Below, piece by piece: positions 33,480-43,667 of a stretch of 64,000 bases of DNA. The stretch lies in contig JASEFA010000001.1 in NCBI GenBank assembly GCA_030019365.1, positions 524,953 to 588,952 on the forward strand, in the 5' to 3' direction. This DNA is from Bacillota bacterium (GTDB taxonomy: Bacteria > Bacillota > Sulfobacillia > JACIYH01). Every line of letters begins with the position of its first letter. Position 1 is the first letter of the stretch. Under the pieces are notes generated by a model, which saw only the letters and a list, made by a program, of their open reading frames with translations, was not told where the DNA came from and searched no databases. A program made the position numbers and the translations under genes.

Positions 33480-34760
33480 TCACCGGTCCGGCAGGTAGCG
33501 CCTGAGGGCTGCCTCCAGGCTGCCGGCGGGAACCCGCACCTGGTCGCCAGAGCGCATGTCCCGCACCGTGACCTCCCCCGACGCCACCTCGTCCTCCCCC
33601 ACCATCGCCACCAGGGGAGCACCCAGGCGAGAGGCATGCTTCATCTGAGCCCGGAGGCTGCGGCCCAGGTAGTCGATGTCGGCCTGCCAGCCCGCCCCGC
33701 GCAGCCGGTACAGGAGGTCGAGGGCCACCGGGCGGGCCGCGTCGCCGGCGTACACCACCATCACCTGCACTTCTGCGGGTGGCGCGGGCAGTCTGCCCTC
33801 CAGCTCCAGGGTGGTGATGATCCGCTCCAGTCCGGCGGCAAAGCCCACCCCGGGGGTGCGATCGCCCCCCAGCTGCTCCACCAGGCCGTCATAGCGGCCC
33901 CCGGCGCACACCGTGCTTTGGGCTCCCAGGGCCCCGTGCATGATCTCGAACACGGTGCGGGTGTAGTAGTCCAGCCCGCGCACCAGGGTGGGATCGAGCA
34001 CGAAGGGGATACCCATCCGGCCCAGGAACTCCTGCACGGTGGCAAAGTGCTGCCGGCATTCGGGGCAGAGGAAATCGGTGGGCCGGGGTGCCTCCCGCAC
34101 CAGGGCCCGGCAGGAGGGCTCTTTGCAGTCCAGCAACCGCAGGGGATTGACCTCCAGCCGCCGGGTGCAGTCCGGACACAGGCCTTCCCGGCCCCGGAAG
34201 TAGGAGAGCAGGGCCTCCCGGTAGGAGGGGCGGCAACGGGGGCAACCGATACTGTTCAGGTGGACGGATAGCCCCTCCAGGCCCAGCCGCTCGAACAGGT
34301 CTCGAGCCAGGGCGATCACCTCGCCGTCCAGGGCGGGATCGTCCGCACCGAAGGCCTCCACGCCGAACTGCACGAACTGGCGGAATCGCCCCGCCTGAGG
34401 CCGTTCGTGGCGGAACATGGGACCCAGGTAGAAAACCTTCCACGGCAAGAGAGGGCGCTCGGACGCCTCCAGGTAGGCCCGCGCCACCGGAGCCGTCCCC
34501 TCGGGGCGCAGGGTGAGGCTGCGCCCGCCCCGGTCGCGGAAGGTGTACATCTGCTTTTCCACGATGTCGGTGGTCTCGCCCGTCGTGCGCTCGAAGAGTT
34601 CGGTGTGCTCGAAGATAGGCGTACGTACCTCGAGGTAGTGGTAACACCGGCACACCTGGCGGATGACATGTTCTACATACTCCCACACATAAACGGCCCC
34701 CGGCAGCACGTCCTGGGTACCCCGGGGCCGCTGAATCGCAGCCCTGGCCGCCCTGGCCAC
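33480..34760 (-). CDS. hisS: Histidine--tRNA ligase
   Basis: Class IIa synthetase for tRNA-His. RPRGTQDVLPG opens the catalytic domain; motif 2 is FRHERPQAGRFRQFVQFGVE; the histidine-A motif is RGLDYYTRTVFEI; GGRYDGLVEQLGG and the C-terminal anticodon domain follow. The insert carries two CxxC pairs (CPRC, CPDC) plus LDCKEPSC and CPEC, so zinc binding is likely in this version. I set the start at GTG 34760, because the perfect promoter at 34778-34806 overlaps any upstream start. Confidence 0.96.
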   Translation of the reverse strand: MARAARAAIQRPRGTQDVLPGAVYVWEYVEHVIRQVCRCYHYLEVRTPIFEHTELFERTTGETTDIVEKQMYTFRDRGGRSLTLRPEGTAPVARAYLEASERPLLPWKVFYLGPMFRHERPQAGRFRQFVQFGVEAFGADDPALDGEVIALARDLFERLGLEGLSVHLNSIGCPRCRPSYREALLSYFRGREGLCPDCTRRLEVNPLRLLDCKEPSCRALVREAPRPTDFLCPECRQHFATVQEFLGRMGIPFVLDPTLVRGLDYYTRTVFEIMHGALGAQSTVCAGGRYDGLVEQLGGDRTPGVGFAAGLERIITTLELEGRLPAPPAEVQVMVVYAGDAARPVALDLLYRLRGAGWQADIDYLGRSLRAQMKHASRLGAPLVAMVGEDEVASGEVTVRDMRSGDQVRVPAGSLEAALRRYLPDR

Positions 34761-34777
34761 CCCCTCACCATGGCCCC

Positions 34778-34806
34778 ATTCTAAATTGGGCACCACCTGC
34801 TGTCAA
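34778..34806 (-). promoter_or_regulatory. Promoter of hisS-aspS
   Basis: TTGACA (34806-34801), a 17-base spacer and TAGAAT (34783-34778) on the minus strand. It overlaps the stop codon of the dppA-like gene and predicts a start near 34771, leaving a leader of only about 11 bases before GTG 34760. Confidence 0.85.
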
Positions 34807-35615
34807 CGAGCGGCAAGGGCCATGAGGGCACGGCCGGCGCGGTAGGCGGTGAGGAAATCGGGTGCCCGGTATCCCACGGTGACGTCGTCGATACGCAGGG
34901 CCCCCGGCATCAGTTCGGCCGCATCGGCCAGGCCGCTGTGGATGAACCGGGTGTGAAGCTCCACGGGCCGGTCCACGCGGAAGGGAGGGATCTCACCCGC
35001 GCGGGTGACCGCGCGGCGGGCTGCTTCCCGGAGCAGGGCGTGCACCTTCTCGGGCGGCAGGCTGGCAGCAACATTGCGGGCCACGTACTCCTTCACCGCC
35101 ACCGTCTCTATGGGACCGAGCAGGGCGCGGGCCTCCTCCACCACCGTGGAATCACCGGACACCAGCACCACCGGTACCCCATACTCGCCCGCCACCGCGG
35201 CATTCATCCCCGTCTCACCCATCACCCGTCCGTTCACCCGATACTCGGCCACGCTCCCGGTGTAGGTGTGGCTCAAGACTCCCCGGCTCCCGGCGCGGGC
35301 ATGGTACCCCACGAAGAAGGCGCACCGGAAGCCGCCGTCCAGCCCCTGGACCATGGAGAGGGGCTTGGGGCTGCCGCTGATCAGGCGCGCGGCCGGGTGC
35401 AGTTCCTCCAGGAGTAAGTTGCGCATGCTACCATGAGAGTCGTTCACCACCACCTCGGCAGCTCCGGCCTCGAGCGCCCCCTCCACGGCCGCGTTCACCT
35501 CGCGGGTCATGAGGCGCCGGGCCCGCTGGTAGTCCTCGCCCCCCTCCTTGCCCGTCTCATCCCAGTGCACGATCCCGCTGATGCCTTCCAGATCCGCCGA
35601 TACGTAGACCTTCAC
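34803..35615 (-). CDS. M55-family D-aminopeptidase (DppA-like)
   Basis: Zinc peptidase that, in the B. subtilis DppA prototype, removes N-terminal D-Ala from short peptides. Metal ligands are in SADLEGISG (Asp, Glu), VNDSHGSM (His), GYHARAGS (His) and GETGMNAAVAGEYG (Glu). Length 270 fits. GTG 35615 follows GGAGGTTAAG. It sits in the relA-dtd-hydrolase operon, where D-amino-acid handling could relate to dtd; that link is inference. Confidence 0.9.
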   Translation of the reverse strand: MKVYVSADLEGISGIVHWDETGKEGGEDYQRARRLMTREVNAAVEGALEAGAAEVVVNDSHGSMRNLLLEELHPAARLISGSPKPLSMVQGLDGGFRCAFFVGYHARAGSRGVLSHTYTGSVAEYRVNGRVMGETGMNAAVAGEYGVPVVLVSGDSTVVEEARALLGPIETVAVKEYVARNVAASLPPEKVHALLREAARRAVTRAGEIPPFRVDRPVELHTRFIHSGLADAAELMPGALRIDDVTVGYRAPDFLTAYRAGRALMALAAR

Positions 35616-35684
35616 CCCCGCTTAACCTCCTTCATCCTCAGCTGCCCGCCGGGGCGGCCGCCCTCACTGCAGGCACGATTGGCC

Positions 35685-36305
35685 TCACTGCAGGTACGGG
35701 TTACCCGCCCTCTCCTCCCCAATGGTGGTGGCGGGGCCGTGTCCCGGATACACTACCGTCTCGTCGGGGAGAACCAGCAGCTTTTCCTTGATCGATCGGA
35801 TCAGGGTGACATGGGAGCCTCCGGGAAAGTCGGTCCGCCCCACGGACCCGGCGAACAGGGTGTCCCCGGAAAACACCGCCCCCTCGCCCGCCAGGCAGAT
35901 GCCGCCCGGGGTGTGACCCGGCGTGTGCAGGACCCGGAAGCGCATCTGGCCCACCTCGACGAGGTCACCGTCTTCCAGCAACCGGCCGGGGGCGACGGGA
36001 GGAAGGGGGTCCCCCGCCCAGGCCGAGAGGTTGCGAGCGGGGTCTGCCAGCAGGGCGGCATCCAGGCGGTGAATGTGCAGGGGTGCTCCGGTGGCCTCCT
36101 TGATGTCCCGGTTGGCGCCGATGTGGTCGGCGTGGCCGTGGGTGTTGACGACGCATCGGACCGTGATCTTCATCTGCCCCACTACCTCCAGGATGCGCTC
36201 CGCTTCGTCGCCGGGGTCGACGATCATGCCTTCGCGGGTGACGGGACAGCCCACTATGTAGCAGTTGGCCGCAAACCACCCTACCGCCAGCGTCTCTAAC
36301 AGCAA
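35685..36305 (-). CDS. Metallo-beta-lactamase-fold hydrolase (glyoxalase II-like)
   Basis: Binuclear-metal hydrolase. [16 protein letters not shown] is the HxHxDH motif; [12 protein letters not shown] supplies the next histidine, [19 protein letters not shown] the bridging aspartate, and [14 protein letters not shown] the last histidine. At 206 residues it is the short type, lacking the glyoxalase II C-terminal domain, so the substrate is uncertain. TTG 36305 has GGGAGG eight bases before it and overlaps the dtd stop by 10 bp, indicating coupling. Confidence 0.9.
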
Positions 36306-36772
36306 CCCACCGACCTCCCCCGTGACTGTTGCGGGTGGCTGTCCAGGAGCACGGTCACCGGTCCGTCGTTGGCCAGTTCCACCAGCATATGTTCTCCGAA
36401 AGCACCCGTCTGCACCGGTACCCCCCTCCGGCGCAGATCCGCCACGAACTCCTCGAAGAGGGGAAGTGCTTCTGCGGGGGGAGCAGCATCGCTGAACCCC
36501 GGCCGCCTCCCCTTGCGACAGTCGGCATAAAGGGTGAACTGGGAAACGGCCAGCACCTCGCCCCCCACGTCCCCCAGAGCGAGGTTCATCTTGCCCACCC
36601 CGTCCTCGAACACGCGCAGGGTGGCCACCTTCTCCGCCAGATGGCGCGCCGCCGTGGCATCATCACCCCGGCCCACCCCCAGCAGGACGAGGAACCCCGG
36701 TCCGGTATGGGCGAGTTGCCGGCCCTCCACCGACACCCGCGCCCACTTAACGCGCTGTACCACCGCCCGCAA
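36296..36772 (-). CDS. dtd: D-aminoacyl-tRNA deacylase
   Basis: Proofreading enzyme that removes D-amino acids, and glycine from tRNA-Ala. [26 protein letters not shown] and the two active-site motifs [17 protein letters not shown] and [12 protein letters not shown] are present. TTG 36772 follows AGGAGGTG by eight bases. It lies 60 bases after the relA stop, the standard Bacillota neighbour. The C-terminus has a few extra residues ([11 protein letters not shown]). Confidence 0.95.
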
Positions 36773-36832
36773 ACACGTGCACCTCCTGCCCCGCGCCCCG
36801 GCTCGGCACCCTCCCGCGCGGTGGGGCCGCCA

Positions 36833-39052
36833 TCAGGGCGTGCGGGACTCTCGCACCACCCGGTCCACCGAAACCACGTCCTTGATTTTGCGGATGCGCC
36901 GGGCCAGGTCGTCCAGTTCCCGCAGGTTGTGTACCTGCAGGACCAGGTCTATCAGGGCCAGGCCGCCCTTGTCGGCCCAGGCCCGGGCCGACAGGATGTT
37001 GGCCCGGGCGTCTGCCACCACCGCAGTGACTTCCGAGAGCATCCCCGGCCGGTCCAGGCCCCGCACCTGCATCTCCACCGGGTACCAGCCATCGGCGCCC
37101 GCGTCCCAGGACACCTCCACCAGCCGACCGGAGTCACGTGCCAGGGCCCGCACGTTGGGGCAGTCCAGCCGGTGGATGGAGACACCCCGACCCCGCGTCA
37201 CGTAGCCGATGATGGGGTCGCCGGGAATGGGAGTGCAGCAGCGTGAGAAACGCACCAGCACGTCTCCCACGCCCCGGACCAGCACACCCTGGCTGCTGGT
37301 ACGACTGGGCTCGGTCGGACCCGGCGCCGGCACCTCAGGAGCCAGTCGCCCCAGCCGTTCCGCCAGGCGGGTGGCCACCCGCTGGGCGCTCACCGCCCCG
37401 TATCCGATCGCAGCCAGCAGGTCGTCCCCGGCGGGGAAGTTCAGTTCCCCGGCCAACTCATCCAACCACGCGGGCCGAACCTCCCGGGCGTCCAGCCCCA
37501 GCGCCCGCAACTCTCGGTCCAGGGTCTCGCGGCCGGCGGCGATGTTCTCATCCCGGCGCTGCTTTTTGAACCAGGCCCGGATCTTGGAGCGCGCTCCCGA
37601 AGTCCTCACCATCTGGAGCCAGTCGGGACTGGGGCCCCGGCTGTGCCGCGAGGTGAGGATCTCCACGATGTCGCCGTTTTCCAGGGGGTGGTCGAGGGGG
37701 ACGATGCGCCCGTTCACTTTGGCCCCCACGCACGAGTGGCCCACTTCAGTGTGCACCCGATAAGCGAAGTCCAGCGGGGTCGCTCCCGCCGGAAGATCGA
37801 TCACGTCGCCTTTGGGGGTGAACACGAAGACCTGGTCGGAGAAGACGTCGATGCGCAGGGAATCCATGAACTCCTGGGCATCCCGCACGTCCCGGGACCA
37901 CTCCAGCAGCTGGCGTAACCAGGAGAGCTTCTCCTCGAACCGCCGATCGGTGATCCGACCACCCTCCTTGTAGCGCCAGTGGGCGGCCACCCCGTACTCA
38001 GCCGTGCGGTGCATCTCCCAGGTGCGGATCTGCACCTCAAAGGGCTCTCCCGCGGGCCCGATCACCGTGGTGTGCAGAGACTGGTACATGTTGGGCTTGG
38101 GCATGGAGATGAAGTCCTTGAAGCGGGCCGAGACCGGCTTCCAGAGGGAATGGACGACCCCCAGGGCGGCGTAGCAGTCGGGGACGGTGTCCACGACCAC
38201 CCGCACGGCGATGAGGTCGTAAATGTCGGACAGGTCGCGGCCCTGCTCCACCATCTTGCGGTGGATGCTCCACAGGTGCTTGGCCCTCCCCTGGACGTCG
38301 GCCCTGATGTGCGCGGCCTCCAGCCGCTCCTTCAATAGATCGATGACCTGTGCCAGCCGGGCCTCCCGCTCCTCGCGCCGTTTGGCAACCCGGTCCACCA
38401 GCTGCCGGTAACGCTCGGCATCCCGGTACCGGAAGGACAGATCCTCCAGCTCCCACTTGAACCGCCAGACCCCCAGCCGGTGAGCCAGGGGTGCGTAGAT
38501 CTCCAGGGTCTCGTCCGCGATCTTGCGCTGCTTGTCCGCAGGCAGGTAGCCCAGGGTGCGCATGTTGTGGAGCCGGTCGGCCAGCTTGATGATCACCACA
38601 CGCAGGTCCTGGGCCATGGCCAGGATCATCTTGCGCAGGTTCTCGGCCTGGGCCTCCCGGGCCGAGGCAAACCCCAGCCGGCCCAGCTTGGTGACTCCGT
38701 CCACCAGGCCGGCCACCTGCTTGCCGAACTGGGACTCGATCTGGGCCAGGGTGACGCCGGTGTCTTCTGCCACATCGTGCAGGAGGGCAGCCGCAATGCC
38801 CACCGGGTCCATCTCCAGCTCGGTGAGCAGCAGGGCCACCGCGAGGGGATGGAAGATGTAGCACTCACCCGAAGCGCGGCGCTGTCCCTCGTGGGCCCGC
38901 AGGGCAAAACGGTACGCCTTCTCCACCAGTTGCGGATCCGCTCCCGGGTAGTAAGCGCTGAGCTTCTCGACCAGCACTCCGAAGAGCTTGTCCGCCGCCC
39001 GGAGGAGTTCTTCTGTGTATTCGCTGCGTACCGCCCGTTCGGCCAGGCTCAA
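36833..39052 (-). CDS. relA: Bifunctional (p)ppGpp synthetase/hydrolase
   Basis: Long RelA/SpoT homologue controlling the stringent response. The HD hydrolase domain is intact (ALLHDVAEDTG, KLADRLHNMRTLG). The synthetase has GRAKHLWSIHRKM, YDLIAVRVVVD and EVQIRTWEMH. Then come the TGS domain (VFVFTPKGDVIDLPAGAT), the zinc-finger region FSRCCTPIPGDPIIGYVTRG and a C-terminal ACT domain. The TTG start at 39052 has GAGGAGG seven bases upstream and a clear TATAAT promoter. Both activities are expected, since key residues are kept. Confidence 0.96.
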   Translation of the reverse strand: MSLAERAVRSEYTEELLRAADKLFGVLVEKLSAYYPGADPQLVEKAYRFALRAHEGQRRASGECYIFHPLAVALLLTELEMDPVGIAAALLHDVAEDTGVTLAQIESQFGKQVAGLVDGVTKLGRLGFASAREAQAENLRKMILAMAQDLRVVIIKLADRLHNMRTLGYLPADKQRKIADETLEIYAPLAHRLGVWRFKWELEDLSFRYRDAERYRQLVDRVAKRREEREARLAQVIDLLKERLEAAHIRADVQGRAKHLWSIHRKMVEQGRDLSDIYDLIAVRVVVDTVPDCYAALGVVHSLWKPVSARFKDFISMPKPNMYQSLHTTVIGPAGEPFEVQIRTWEMHRTAEYGVAAHWRYKEGGRITDRRFEEKLSWLRQLLEWSRDVRDAQEFMDSLRIDVFSDQVFVFTPKGDVIDLPAGATPLDFAYRVHTEVGHSCVGAKVNGRIVPLDHPLENGDIVEILTSRHSRGPSPDWLQMVRTSGARSKIRAWFKKQRRDENIAAGRETLDRELRALGLDAREVRPAWLDELAGELNFPAGDDLLAAIGYGAVSAQRVATRLAERLGRLAPEVPAPGPTEPSRTSSQGVLVRGVGDVLVRFSRCCTPIPGDPIIGYVTRGRGVSIHRLDCPNVRALARDSGRLVEVSWDAGADGWYPVEMQVRGLDRPGMLSEVTAVVADARANILSARAWADKGGLALIDLVLQVHNLRELDDLARRIRKIKDVVSVDRVVRESRTP

Positions 39053-39073
39053 GCCGTCGCCTCCTCATATTCG

Positions 39074-39103
39074 ATTATAGTCCACCGCCGCGAAGAGTGT
39101 CAT
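39074..39103 (-). promoter_or_regulatory. Promoter of relA operon
   Basis: ATGACA (39103-39098), an 18-base spacer and a perfect TATAAT (39079-39074) on the minus strand. The start near 39067 gives a leader of about 15 bases that contains the GAGGAGG ribosome site. The -35 box overlaps the end of lapA. Confidence 0.8.
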
Positions 39104-39540
39104 CTTCCGCCGCCCGGCTCGGCCGCGCCAGGTGGGGGTGCGGACCCCTCCGTCACTCTGTCACCGGTTCCCGAACCTATCCCGGAGCCCTGGCCGGACG
39201 GACGGCGCCCTTCCTCTTCGGCTTTCTTGAGCTTTTCGGCCAGCTGGCGGGCTTCTTCCTCCGCCCCGGTTACCCGCTCGCTGAGCTGGCGCTTCTCTTC
39301 CTGCAACCTGCGCACCTGGCCCTGCAGGTCCGAGCTGCGAAGATACGCCCGCACCCGCTGCGGCAGGGCGCTCACGGCGGTGAGGAGCACGCCGGCCGCG
39401 GCAGCACCGGTGATCACCAGCGCCTGCGAAGTGCGCCACTCCCACCCCAGGAATCGGATCACCACCAGGTCCGTGTTCTGGCCGGCAAACAGGGCAATCA
39501 GGACAGCGGCCACAAACCACACCAGCCAGGCCCAGGTCAC
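39100..39540 (-). CDS. lapA: LapA-domain membrane protein with coiled coil
   Basis: Two-helix inner-membrane protein of the LapA (DUF1049) family, linked to lipopolysaccharide assembly in Gram-negatives but of unknown role here. Helix 1 is VWFVAAVLIALFAGQN, followed by the family segment DLVVIRFLGWEW, then helix 2 ALVITGAAAAGVLL. A cytoplasmic coiled coil rich in Glu, Lys and Arg follows (VRRLQEEKRQLSERVTGAEE) and a Gly/Pro tail. GTG 39540 is chosen because GAGGGG precedes it and the upstream frame adds only a Cys-containing stub. Confidence 0.8.
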   Translation of the reverse strand: MTWAWLVWFVAAVLIALFAGQNTDLVVIRFLGWEWRTSQALVITGAAAAGVLLTAVSALPQRVRAYLRSSDLQGQVRRLQEEKRQLSERVTGAEEEARQLAEKLKKAEEEGRRPSGQGSGIGSGTGDRVTEGSAPPPGAAEPGGGR

Positions 39541-39674
39541 GCCCCTCGCCCCCTCAGGACATTTTTGGCAAGCCATTCGCCGCCCGGCGCCAGCATTCCT
39601 GCTCGCCCGTCTGCCCTCGTGCGGTCAGGCAGTACGGCCCGCCCGGCGGTCGGGCGCTGGAGCGTGCCAGTCGG

Positions 39675-41477
39675 TCAGGCGGTGAGGGCGCGCACGCGGC
39701 GCCTCTCGGCGTGGGCGATGGCCACCAGGGCCTCCTTCTCCAGTTCGTCCACGATGTACAGGTGCCCGTTGGCCCTCCGGCACAGGCCCTCCAGGAAGGC
39801 CCGGTTGGGCTCAAGACCGATGCAGGCGAAGTTCACCCGGGCTGCGGGTATGCGGTTGGCGGCGTCCAGAGCGTCGCTCAGGGGGTCGAGGGTCCACTTG
39901 GGTACGGTGGGGATGCCGTCCGAGATGAGCAGGAGGACGGGGTTGCGCGCCCGCGCCCGGCGCAGGTACTCCAGGGCCCCCATAATCCCCTCCGCCATGG
40001 GAGTGAGCCCCAGGGCGGAAATGCGGGAAAGACCGTGCTCCACCCGGCAGTAACTCCGGCACAGGGGCACATAGGTCTCCACCTGGCGTTCCTGGAACAC
40101 CAGCACCGCCACCCGGTCCCGGGTGGCCAGTACCAGGTGTTGAGCCAGGAACTTGGCCGCCCGCAACCGCCGCCCCGCCATACTGGCCGAGGCGTCGATG
40201 AGCAGGCAGATGTCGATGGGATTGCCCGGCCGGTGCCGCCACACCCGCACGTCCTCCGGCCTGAGGACGATGCGCGACGGCCTGACGGCCTCGGGGGGCG
40301 GGGCCAGGAGCCCCCGGCGCACCGACTCCACCACCGTCTCGGTGACGGCCAGCTCCCGTGCCCACTCCCCCTTTTCCACCGGTTCAGGCCGCATGGCCGG
40401 TCCCCGTCCCTGCTCGGGACGACCCTCCAGCCGGCGGTTGACCCGGGCGCGGGCGGGAACGGGAGCGGGGATGCGCCGCAGCAACTTGCGGAACTCCAGC
40501 TCGATTTCTCGCCGCCGCTCCCGCACCATCTGTCGCAGGGTCATCCCGGTGGGCGTGAGAGTGACCTTCCACCCGTCCCGGCGGATCAGACCCCGCTGCT
40601 CGAGGAGGTCGAGAAAGCGCGACACCGAGCGGTGCGAGCCGGCCAGCTTCATCGCCAGAGAACGCATCCCGTCGTCGCCGGCCAGGGCATCCAGCGCCTC
40701 CTGCAGGTCCCCCACCCCGCCCAGTTCCTCGGCCAGCTCGAGGGCAGACTCCAGTTGCCGGCTGGCCTGCACCTCGGGTGAGGCCCGGTCTCCCGGGATC
40801 TCCTCCCGCAACAGGGAGTCGGACAGGGAACGATAGGGAGAAAGATCGATGTCGGGACTGCCGGGCGGCGCGGGAGGATCGCATATCACCTTCTCCACCC
40901 GGCGAATCTCCAGGCCGCTCAGGCCCACCTGCTCCTCCACCGCCGCCACGAAGTAAAGGAGCAGGCCCATCATCTCGCGGGGGATCCGGGCGGCGATGTG
41001 CACGTGGTTGGAATGGGCATAGCGCACCGATGCCCGCCTTCCGTACTTCAGGCTCCCCGTGCACCGCCCGCCGCCGGTGGCCGTCTGCACGTCCACGTAG
41101 TCGAGGATGCGGCCGGGGGCCCGATCGGGAGACTCCCGGGGCCAGGGCAGGCCGGGCGTCGCCGCCCAGGCGTCCACCGCCCGGGCGAGGGCCCGGGCCA
41201 CCGCCCGGTGATCCACCGCCCCCAACTGATGGAACACATCCAGGTGGATCACCTCGCCGGGACGTCGCCGGTGGTAGAACACCTGCCCGGCGTCGGCACC
41301 CGTGAGCACGTGCAGCTCTTGAGGACGACGGGGGTCCACGGTGTGCATCTTCAGGGAAGCCACCCCTGCTTCCCCGAGGTGCACCCCCCGCGTCCCCTCC
41401 AGCGCTGCCGCCATCACCAGACCCGCCTGGCGCAGAAACTCGGCATCCGCCAGCGAGCGCACCCTGAGCAGGGACAC
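39675..41477 (-). CDS. VWA-domain protein, ChlD/CoxE-like partner of the adjacent ATPase
   Basis: 600 residues. The C-terminal quarter is a von Willebrand A domain with a full MIDAS: LLIDASASMAG (about 430), the threonine in LGLTPMAEGI and LLISDGIPTVP. Residues about 265-330 look like a winged helix (LAMKLAGSHRSVSRFLDLLE, RGLIRRDGWKVTLTPTG). The first 200 residues match no family I recognise; they contain NHVHIAARIPREMMG and DYVDVQTATGGG. GTG 41477 has GGGAGGAG just upstream, three bases past the ATPase stop, so the two are coupled. AAA+/VWA pairs act in metal insertion or enzyme activation; no target is encoded nearby. Confidence 0.8.
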   Translation of the reverse strand: MSLLRVRSLADAEFLRQAGLVMAAALEGTRGVHLGEAGVASLKMHTVDPRRPQELHVLTGADAGQVFYHRRRPGEVIHLDVFHQLGAVDHRAVARALARAVDAWAATPGLPWPRESPDRAPGRILDYVDVQTATGGGRCTGSLKYGRRASVRYAHSNHVHIAARIPREMMGLLLYFVAAVEEQVGLSGLEIRRVEKVICDPPAPPGSPDIDLSPYRSLSDSLLREEIPGDRASPEVQASRQLESALELAEELGGVGDLQEALDALAGDDGMRSLAMKLAGSHRSVSRFLDLLEQRGLIRRDGWKVTLTPTGMTLRQMVRERRREIELEFRKLLRRIPAPVPARARVNRRLEGRPEQGRGPAMRPEPVEKGEWARELAVTETVVESVRRGLLAPPPEAVRPSRIVLRPEDVRVWRHRPGNPIDICLLIDASASMAGRRLRAAKFLAQHLVLATRDRVAVLVFQERQVETYVPLCRSYCRVEHGLSRISALGLTPMAEGIMGALEYLRRARARNPVLLLISDGIPTVPKWTLDPLSDALDAANRIPAARVNFACIGLEPNRAFLEGLCRRANGHLYIVDELEKEALVAIAHAERRRVRALTA

Positions 41478-41480
41478 GCT

Positions 41481-42869
41481 CTACTCCTCCCTGACCCAGG
41501 CGGCCAGGGGCAGTTCCACCAGGGGGCGAGCCACCGCCGGCGGGGAAGCAATGGGTGCCTGCAGGGGGTCGGTCATGGGAGATGCGCCTCCCCCACCTCG
41601 CGTTCCCGTGCCTGCCGGACCCGCCCTGCTCTCGCGGGCCCCCCTTCCGCCCGGCCCGCCGCCCGGCTCGCCCCCCAGCAATGCCTGCAGCCGTTCGCGG
41701 GCGCGGGCGAACAGCTGGCTGAGACCGGTATCGCCCCGCTCCTGGGTGGGGGCGGCAGCGGGCACCTGGGCCTCCGCCGCTCCCCCCCCTGGTTCCCGGG
41801 GCGAATCGAGCCTGGCCATAACCTCGCTGAGAGTGGGCATGTCCACCCGATGCCGCAACACCAGGGGCGCCACCGCCAGGAAATCGGCTACTTCCGCCTC
41901 TTTGCGCCCGGCCAGGCAGGCGTGAATGCGGGCACCCAGCTGCCAGGCTTCCACCGCCCGAAGGCTCTCGAAACCGAAGTCCACGTATAGCGAGGCGATC
42001 AGCCCCCGCAGGCTGTCGGGAACCAGCACCTGGGGCATCCACTGCATGAAGTGGCTCCACCGGGTGCGGTTGCGGTCCAGGTCGGGCAGACCCGGGATGG
42101 CCGGCCTGGGGCATACGCCCGGGACGCTCCCTGTCCGGAACCAGGCGTCCGACGCCTCCAGGACCCGCCTTACCGCTTCCGGGGCAGCGGGACGTCCCAT
42201 ATTCACCACCAGGTCAAAGCGGTCGGCCAGTTGCCGCCTGATGTCTTCCAGGGGGCCAGGGTCCTCGTCCGGGTTGGAGGCCGCCCAGACGCAGGCGTTG
42301 ACATCCAGCGACACCACGGGCAGGCCCGTCTCCTCGATCTGCACCCGCCCCGGCTTGGTACCCATCACCCCCAGCAGGACGTCAGTCAGCTCGGGGGAGG
42401 TCTCGGCCAGGCGGTTGATCTCATCCACGAAAATGATTCCCCGGTGGGCCTGAGGGATGGTGCCGGGCAGCAGGGCAGCCTGGGCACCGCGGGGCGATGT
42501 CAGCCGGCCCAGGTCGATGCTGCCCACCACCGTGCCCAGCTTGGCCGAGTGGGTGATCTCCAGGAAGGGCATGGCGGTCCACTCGGTCCCCAGGGCCGCC
42601 ACCTCTTCCCGGCTCAGGTCGCGGTGCTCGGGACAGTGAGGCCGATCCGGATGGCAGTTGTAGACGCAGCCGGCAATGCGCAGGATGGGGGGCAAGACCT
42701 GCCGGGCCGCCCGCAGGATGGTGGTCTTCCCCGTGCCTCGCAGCCCCTCGGCGTGCAGGTGCAGGGGGCGGCCGCACAGGGTGCCGAGGACGCTCATTTC
42801 GATGGCTTCAAACAGCGCCTGGTTTCCCGGAAAGCGAATCAGTTCCTGATACCCCAGCACGGAGCCCAC
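41481..42869 (-). CDS. ChlI/MoxR-like AAA+ ATPase with Cys cluster
   Basis: Hexameric AAA+ ATPase of the magnesium-chelatase subunit I type. Walker A is EGLRGTGKTTILRA, Walker B IIFVDEINRLAETSPELTDV, and sensor 1 ACVWAASNPDEDPGPLEDI with the arginine finger region LADRFDLVVNMG. Between Walker A and the first insert lies a possible zinc site, AGCVYNCHPDRPHCPEH, where ChlI has a Cys-free NxDP segment. The C-terminal 100 residues are a Gly/Pro-rich linker. GTG 42869 follows AGAGG; GTG 42860 also possible. It is followed directly by the VWA protein. There is no ChlH/CobN-type subunit in the window, so chelatase function is not implied. Confidence 0.82.
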   Translation of the reverse strand: MGSVLGYQELIRFPGNQALFEAIEMSVLGTLCGRPLHLHAEGLRGTGKTTILRAARQVLPPILRIAGCVYNCHPDRPHCPEHRDLSREEVAALGTEWTAMPFLEITHSAKLGTVVGSIDLGRLTSPRGAQAALLPGTIPQAHRGIIFVDEINRLAETSPELTDVLLGVMGTKPGRVQIEETGLPVVSLDVNACVWAASNPDEDPGPLEDIRRQLADRFDLVVNMGRPAAPEAVRRVLEASDAWFRTGSVPGVCPRPAIPGLPDLDRNRTRWSHFMQWMPQVLVPDSLRGLIASLYVDFGFESLRAVEAWQLGARIHACLAGRKEAEVADFLAVAPLVLRHRVDMPTLSEVMARLDSPREPGGGAAEAQVPAAAPTQERGDTGLSQLFARARERLQALLGGEPGGGPGGRGARESRAGPAGTGTRGGGGASPMTDPLQAPIASPPAVARPLVELPLAAWVREE

Positions 42870-43094
42870 CCCCTGCCTCTTGTCGCGGCATCTATTGTTT
42901 CCCGGCGGCAACCCGGCCATAAGAAGTTTGCCCGGCCAGTTTTTCCCGGCCGAGCCTCCCTTGGCAGGGGAGAATCCGGACCACCGCGAAAGTACAGCGC
43001 AGCGGCTACCCGGTCTGCGGGGTAGGGGCGGCGGCTACGCGCTCCTCCCAGCGGGAGCATCCGTGGGTGCCAGGGCACTCGGGGGGGAATGGGA

Positions 43095-43667
43095 ATGGCG
43101 GGCGCTGAGCTGTTCGAGCTTTTCAGGCAGAGGGCGGAGCAGGCAGGGGCCCACGTGGAGCGCCTGCCGGGACCGCGGGAAGCGTGCGCGTACGTGTGCC
43201 GCATGGTCGCGGAACGGAAGCTGGCCCCGGTCCTGGTGGCAAACGGTCCCTTACTCGGGGAAATGCATCTGGTGGCCGCTCTCGCCGGGCAGGGCACCGA
43301 GGTGCTCCTGGATACGGCTCAGGGTGCGGAGCAGGCCGCCCTGGGGGTGACCGAAGCCGACCTGGGCGTGGCCGAGACGGGGAGCCTGTACCAGGATGCC
43401 ACGTCTCTCGTGCTCCGGCTGGCCAGCATGCTGCCACCCGTACATGTGGCCGTGCTGCCCGCCGACCGCATCGTGGGGACCCTGGAGGAAGCTCTCCCCT
43501 ACATCTTGGGCCGCGGGCAACCCCCGGCCTACGCCGCCTTCATCACCGGCCCCAGCCGCACCGCCGATATAGAGCGCGTGCTCACCATCGGGGTACACGG
43601 GCCCGCGGAACTTCACATCCTCTGCATAGACCGGCCCCAGGCCGCTCAGCGGGCCGCCTCAGCCTGA
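43095..43667 (+). CDS. LUD-domain protein (LutC/YkgG-like)
   Basis: 190-residue protein of the LUD family, related to LutC of the lactate-utilisation complex. The pattern ELFRQRAEQAGAHVERL near the start, LGVTEADLGVAETGSLYQD, VHVAVLPADRIVGTLEEAL and AAFITGPSRTADIERVLTIGVHGP is characteristic. No LutA or LutB partner is adjacent, so it is a stand-alone version of unknown role. ATG 43095 gives better spacing from the G-rich ribosome site than ATG 43089. It is divergent from the ATPase-VWA pair. Confidence 0.88.
   Translation: MAGAELFELFRQRAEQAGAHVERLPGPREACAYVCRMVAERKLAPVLVANGPLLGEMHLVAALAGQGTEVLLDTAQGAEQAALGVTEADLGVAETGSLYQDATSLVLRLASMLPPVHVAVLPADRIVGTLEEALPYILGRGQPPAYAAFITGPSRTADIERVLTIGVHGPAELHILCIDRPQAAQRAASA

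Follow-up and report, generated by a model that had tools for sequence, protein, structure and literature searches.

A conserved chelatase-type AAA+ ATPase and VWA protein pair of Bacillota with an unrecognised N-terminal domain

Overview

The window analysed here, a stretch of 64,000 nucleotides from a Bacillota bacterium of the class Sulfobacillia, carries on its minus strand two adjacent genes, for an AAA+ ATPase of the ChlI/CobD clade and for a VWA protein, which together form a conserved unit. Judged from its protein sequences, the pair reads as the motor chain of a chelatase divided between two proteins, in which the VWA half is preceded by a new N-terminal domain and a winged helix; it is kin to the motor that places magnesium in chlorophyll. 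The best explanation that we can offer, and to which we give about an even chance of being right, is a chelatase-derived AAA+/VWA machine for remodelling or metal insertion, the working end of which is fused to the VWA subunit. The pair is a clean case of an orphan motor, common in one phylum, with fixed partners and with half of its carriers devoid of tetrapyrrole synthesis, and with its two genes it offers a direct way of testing what such a motor does where there is no chelatase. The N-terminal domain of the VWA protein, which is the putative working end, combines an enzyme-like set of conserved residues with no recognised fold.

The ATPase

The ATPase gene (positions 41481-42920, minus strand) encodes 479 amino acids from its first ATG; an in-frame GTG at 42869, 17 codons after this ATG, is an equally plausible start because the majority of orthologues begin near there. 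The stop codon is followed after 3 bases by the gene of the VWA protein (39675-41477, minus strand, 600 amino acids). A coupled pair of a ChlI-like ATPase and a VWA protein had been proposed at this place by the sequence-only reading, and both open reading frames are present there with Pfam and NCBIfam matches. No Rfam match was found between positions 39000 and 44500, and the one promoter-like match found is located away from the start of the pair.

In Pfam, the ATPase matches AAA_lid_2 (1.8e-9) and Mg_chelatase (2.7e-5). Its best NCBIfam match is TIGR02442 (2e-36; 125.7 bits, where the cut-off is 779) and its score with TIGR02030, 94.0 bits, is also under the curated cut-off (467). Using phmmer against solved chains, we recovered three ChlI/BchI sequences (4.2e-16 to 6.9e-14) and, as the sole other chain, Lon protease at 0.049. 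The residues that we take to be the Walker, sensor and MIDAS residues of the two proteins are invariant or nearly so among orthologues. The presumed Walker A, GLRGTGKT, occupies residues 59-66 of the ATPase (42723-42746, minus strand), and K65, D166, E167, N216 and R228 are invariant in 25 of 25 orthologues, R321 being nearly so. The AAA lid (AAA_lid_2 in Pfam) spans residues 308-362 (41835-41999, minus strand). After a variable Pro/Gly-rich linker the protein ends in a conserved C-terminal tail (41484-41558, minus strand) with the consensus APPxxARPLxEL, in which P460 and A464 are kept in at least 90% of 25 orthologues; comparable tails are seen elsewhere, and the tail is a possible docking peptide.

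The ATPase also has a Cys/His motif, C85-x3-C89-x6-C96-x2-H99 (42624-42668, minus strand), a candidate metal site; all 44 orthologues whose Walker A could be read have it as C-x3-C-x6-C-x2-H. The sequence-only reading had described it as an extra Cys cluster; the cluster is there but is not extra, because the alignment shows C-x3-C-x(7-8)-C-x2-C at the corresponding columns of chelatase-type ATPases (four of five, the stretch being missing in the fifth). As judged by this alignment, it is a feature of the clade in which a Cys has changed to His, with no addition. The five comparison ATPases come from two relatives, four from G028, which has CobN, and one from G016, which is without CobN.

With a ChlI-like AAA core, the lid and the Cys motif all present, the ATPase is a member of the chelatase clade. 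In a maximum-likelihood tree, which is rough, with long branches and unsettled bootstrap, 29 orphan ATPases lie on one side of a branch with support 96/90 and the five chelatase-type ATPases on a separate branch (99/98). The single MoxR row of this tree is on a very long branch; the NCBIfam matches favour chelatase models.

The VWA protein

The VWA domain lies at residues 422-580 (VWA_2, 7e-12) and has a complete MIDAS, D428, S430, S432, T492 and D520. The DxSxS...T...D pattern on a VWA fold makes it a member of the VWA domain family, and VIA-align superposed it on 4fx5 with a Z of 21.0 and an rmsd of 2.4 over 172 aligned residues. Together with a ChlD-type linker it forms residues 376-600 (39678-40352, minus strand). 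Residues 234-334 (40476-40778, minus strand) form a helical, probably winged-helix segment, indicated by winged-helix models over about residues 262-326, all below cut-off, and by a helix-helix-helix-strand-strand pattern in the predicted structure. Residues 1-230 (40788-41477, minus strand) constitute the N-terminal domain, over which no Pfam model was found. Both the winged helix and the about 200 unrecognised N-terminal residues had been read from the letters of the sequence, and both readings hold.

Along the 641 positions of TIGR02442, the model of a single-chain putative cobaltochelatase, the ATPase covers positions 31-318 and the VWA protein (78.5 bits against the cut-off of 779) positions 410-638, in the same order. 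Distant orthologues tile the model likewise, the two halves at locus L134 covering 31-420 and 417-639. No AAA domain was found in the VWA protein with Pfam or NCBIfam, the linker and VWA domain being present; the AAA half expected of a ChlD-like subunit is replaced by the N-terminal domain of about 230 residues and the winged helix. The pair would accordingly be kin to chelatase motor subunits that have AAA+, linker and VWA in a single chain, but adapted to another use and distributed over two genes, and it may have originated by splitting of such a chain.

Distribution and pairing

The VWA protein is found in 30 of 41 genomes, these being its own genome and 40 relatives, and a short-pattern scan of genome contigs recovered it in 11 loci, all from Bacillota. 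Of 398 genomes sampled across the phylum, 108 were matched by a profile of the N-terminal domain, representing 68 of 271 genera (105 of 393 genomes when 90% completeness and no more than 5% contamination are required); three of the 108 carriers, G062, G189 and G354, have fragmentary matches. Sporomusa malonica DSM 5090 (locus L018) is an example of a carrier in culture. These profile-sensitivity searches covered this phylum and viral contigs, where no match was obtained, and none was found on plasmids searched with the window sequence as query. Nearly all full-length matches sit in frames of 530-1250 amino acids, so the domain is not seen standing alone. At G018, G024, G025 and G038 the frames carrying it are 775-1245 amino acids long, with extra sequence beyond 600 amino acids.

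In 46 of 49 loci the ATPase gene is directly upstream of the VWA gene, with both on one strand, and the other three run off the contig, 1, 347 and 674 bases before its end. The commonest gap between the two genes is a 4-base overlap. At five loci (L121, L122, L123, L124 and L125) one ChlI-like ATPase is followed by two or three tandem paralogues of the VWA protein, and genome G050 has two such clusters with 5 copies of the N-terminal domain.

Absence of the H subunit and of tetrapyrrole synthesis

The sequence-only reading had noted the lack of an H subunit, and the H-subunit family PF02514 indeed gave 0 matches in the genome of the window. It is present in one of the 41 genomes mentioned above, 30 of which carry the VWA protein, and in 10 of the 108 carriers of the phylum sample, on another contig in nine of these and on the same chromosome but about 0.8 and 1.4 Mb off (at least 0.7 Mb) in one. 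Porphobilinogen deaminase (HemC) is needed for all de novo tetrapyrroles. It is encoded in the genome of the window and is absent from 53 of the 108 carriers (51 of 105 without the three fragmentary matches), including the single-contig genomes G024, G058, G285 and G317; the pair therefore cannot depend on home-made tetrapyrroles. As none of the HemC-lacking carriers has an H subunit by PF02514, the H subunit tracks tetrapyrroles and the pair does not. Over the phylum, HemC and the pair show no clear association either way (Fisher p 0.07).

These counts bear directly on the proposal that a tetrapyrrole chelatase uses the pair as its I/D motor, with an H subunit that has escaped recognition or whose gene lies elsewhere. 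This proposal draws on the clear kinship with the chelatase clade and on the presence of HemC in the genome of the window, but it has to accommodate 53 carriers without HemC and 98 of 108 without the H family, and we consider it already nearly refuted. Metallation of tetrapyrroles by the pair is unlikely. A target other than chlorophyll-like molecules is probable, because many carriers make no such molecules and the N-terminal domain has no recognised relative.

A second, different chelatase-type ATPase is found at locus L070 of genome G016, beside a frame of 301 amino acids matching the VWA part; this genome has neither PF02514 nor HemC, and these two genes are possibly another orphan motor.

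The N-terminal domain

Over 25 divergent sequences, which reach down to 25% identity to the protein of the window, 15 positions of the N-terminal domain are invariant: G35, S41, H45, D62, A63, G64, H78, D80, H83, T132, G135, G137, H158, H160 and E181. Nine of them are Ser, His, Asp or Glu (S41, H45, D62, H78, D80, H83, H158, H160 and E181). From these residue types a metal role may be proposed, and the same set would equally fit the site of a hydrolase or a lyase. AlphaFold, run on the domain alone with 12 sequences, gave a moderately confident model (pTM 0.81, pLDDT 76) that is poor at residues 43-62, where the full-length model has better confidence.

Pfam searches with 28 members of the domain gave scattered matches only, at E values up to 1, and the best E was 0.085 in a profile search of solved chains. 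Foldseek reached at best 0.21 in the PDB and 0.15 among viral models. The best VIA-align result, biotin ligase 1bib (Z 5.1, rmsd 3.8, 112 aligned residues), falls in the range that this tool gives for models without a match. That neither fold nor sequence searches gave a significant match is no proof that the fold is new. Neither the profile nor the structure-model searches matched a known ChlD domain, in agreement with the novelty claimed earlier for this N-terminus. Searches of defence and phage libraries gave nothing beyond winged-helix, VWA and general ATPase matches. An internal duplication was also considered and rejected, as the two halves fail to align (hhalign probability 0.1%).

As an alternative we weighed a machine acting on DNA, with the winged helix for binding, the N-terminal domain for processing the bound DNA and the AAA+ ring for remodelling the complex. 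DNA motors, ComM for example, belong to the AAA+ clade, the winged-helix segment is present, recJ is nearby on the same strand in 25 of 55 loci, and the N-terminal domain contains an HxNHVHxA motif whose HVH strand recalls HUH endonucleases. However, none of the 28 domains was matched at E values up to 1 by a model for HUH proteins, relaxases or transposases, on which ground we rejected an identity as HUH-type nuclease; no Tyr is invariant across the whole family, Y68 not being kept, and recJ belongs to a housekeeping block and, in other lineages, does not occur close to the pair. We regard this explanation as improbable.

Still less probable in our opinion is an N-terminal domain that adopts an S-adenosylmethionine-decarboxylase-like fold and acts as an enzyme under the control of the motor. 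The family AdoMet_dc matched two of the 28 members (best E 0.092), a profile-profile alignment of 59 columns matches up the motifs H..[DS]P, DVF and VD..A, which follow in the same order, and the helix and strand order of the predicted model is similar to that which we take SpeD to have. On the other side, the comparison, made with 22 and then with 78 SpeD rows, is not significant: the hhalign probability is 1%, with p 0.05 for one chosen pair, and an earlier value of 0.6% compares with 0.1-0.4% for nine unrelated control families. The fold is not among the 50 solved structures listed, which does not exclude it.

The conserved residues also bear on a general factor of protein quality or assembly like RavA/ViaA, in which they would hold the fold and have no metal or catalytic role. 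Pairs of AAA+ and VWA proteins are commonly remodelling chaperones according to PMC7159879, but 15 invariant positions, nine of them Ser, His, Asp or Glu, at 25-45% identity to the protein of the window would exceed the usual needs of folding, and we hold this explanation to be unlikely, though it is the strongest of these three.

Separately, at loci L206 and L207 (genomes G130 and G050) a frame of 274 amino acids has two tandem AdoMet decarboxylase domain matches.

Relation to known systems and proposed mechanism

The pair shares with the TIGR02442 subunit and with ChlI-ChlD an AAA+ domain with AAA_lid_2, the Cys motif, a ChlD-type segment before the VWA domain, the MIDAS and the order of ATPase then VWA. 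In contrast to ChlI-ChlD, its VWA subunit has no AAA half and carries the new N-terminal domain and the winged helix, and unlike the Mg- and cobalt chelatases (ChlIDH and CobNST) it has no H subunit and occurs without tetrapyrrole synthesis. The features that define these chelatases, namely an H subunit encoded with the motor, a tetrapyrrole-making host, a curated score for the I subunit and a D subunit with AAA, linker and VWA, are thus not those of the pair. NorQ-NorD, CoxD-CoxE and RavA-ViaA, which remodel or metallate protein targets, are likewise two-gene AAA+/VWA machines, but they belong to the MoxR sub-clade, whereas the pair is placed in the chelatase sub-clade by its profile matches and has no constant target gene. 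The AAA+/VWA pairs of the MoxR type have a dedicated target enzyme nearby.

The orphan I/D motor as such is already in print: the main text of PMC9227772 (2022) describes genotypes with chlI and chlD and without chlH or cobN, in Spirochaeta, Chloroflexi and others, and states their function to be unknown. Like the pair, these have an I-like gene next to a D-like gene and lack a large subunit. Their chlD is given there as the medium subunit with an N-terminal part homologous to chlI, whereas the D partner of the pair has no chlI-like part and has the new domain; the word Firmicutes is absent from that main text. In our literature search, we did not find descriptions of this family, of the domain replacement, of tetrapyrrole-free carriers or of the wide and fixed pairing.

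By analogy with these systems, remodelling or metallation is the most likely class of function, and because of its descent and intact residues the pair is expected to be an AAA+/VWA machine powered by ATP. Its ATPase should assemble into a ring driven by ATP, on which the VWA protein should dock, and ATP hydrolysis would pull or twist the VWA protein, as has been proposed for NorQ-NorD and ChlI-ChlD. According to PMC13036017, the NorQD ring is proposed to twist and stretch its VWA partner, allowing metal insertion, and according to PMC6604950, the VWA domain and MIDAS of ChlD join the motor to the substrate-holding subunit. In the pair, the substrate-holding part would most simply be the fused N-terminal domain, which would act as the working end and hold a metal or an active site, and the machine would insert metal into, or remodel, a target other than a tetrapyrrole, either a protein or a small molecule. 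In arrays of one ATPase with two or three VWA paralogues, several working ends may share a single motor.

A more specific form of this reading, which we consider possible but doubtful, is a new ATP-driven metal-insertion machine in which a small metal-holding domain, joined to the VWA protein, takes the place of the large subunit of the chelatase, with a non-tetrapyrrole target and, in some lineages, one motor with several VWA-borne heads. If true, it would mean that the principle of the chelatase is applied to a protein metal site or to another ligand.

Gene neighbourhood

Within the class, the pair is usually found inside a housekeeping block consisting of secDF, lapA, recJ, apt, relA, dtd, a hydrolase gene and hisS, the identities of which were checked on examples; besides recJ, secDF is near the pair in 15 of 55 loci and relA in 26 of 55. 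Other lineages have different blocks around the pair, with RNase PH and Ham1, with RapZ-CofD-WhiA or with others. In the neighbourhoods surveyed, no constant neighbour pointing to a pathway was found besides the pair itself, and hence there is no guilt by association. Orthologues do not sit in chelatase operons, as expected for the orphan unit that had been proposed. In 6 of 55 loci, a set in which some genomes are represented twice, a cation-efflux gene is directly upstream of the ATPase gene, which is suggestive at most.

A LUD gene (43089-43667, plus strand; LUD_dom, 4e-31) is divergent from the pair in the window, as the sequence-only reading had stated; any link implied by this arrangement is not supported, since the gene is beside the pair in three of 60 neighbourhood loci, all three in the genus of the window. 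On the other side of the pair, positions 33480-39576 (minus strand) carry lapA, relA, dtd, the hydrolase gene, an M55 peptidase gene and hisS in the same order as in relatives; in this genus, recJ and apt are missing from the place of the lapA-hisS block. In several lineages a gene for a class-III aminotransferase of about 900 amino acids is near the pair (L121, 15440-18136, plus strand; L126, 1630-4314; L129, 17186-19912), with a long C-terminal half without Pfam match and with PigE, below cut-off, as its best NCBIfam match.
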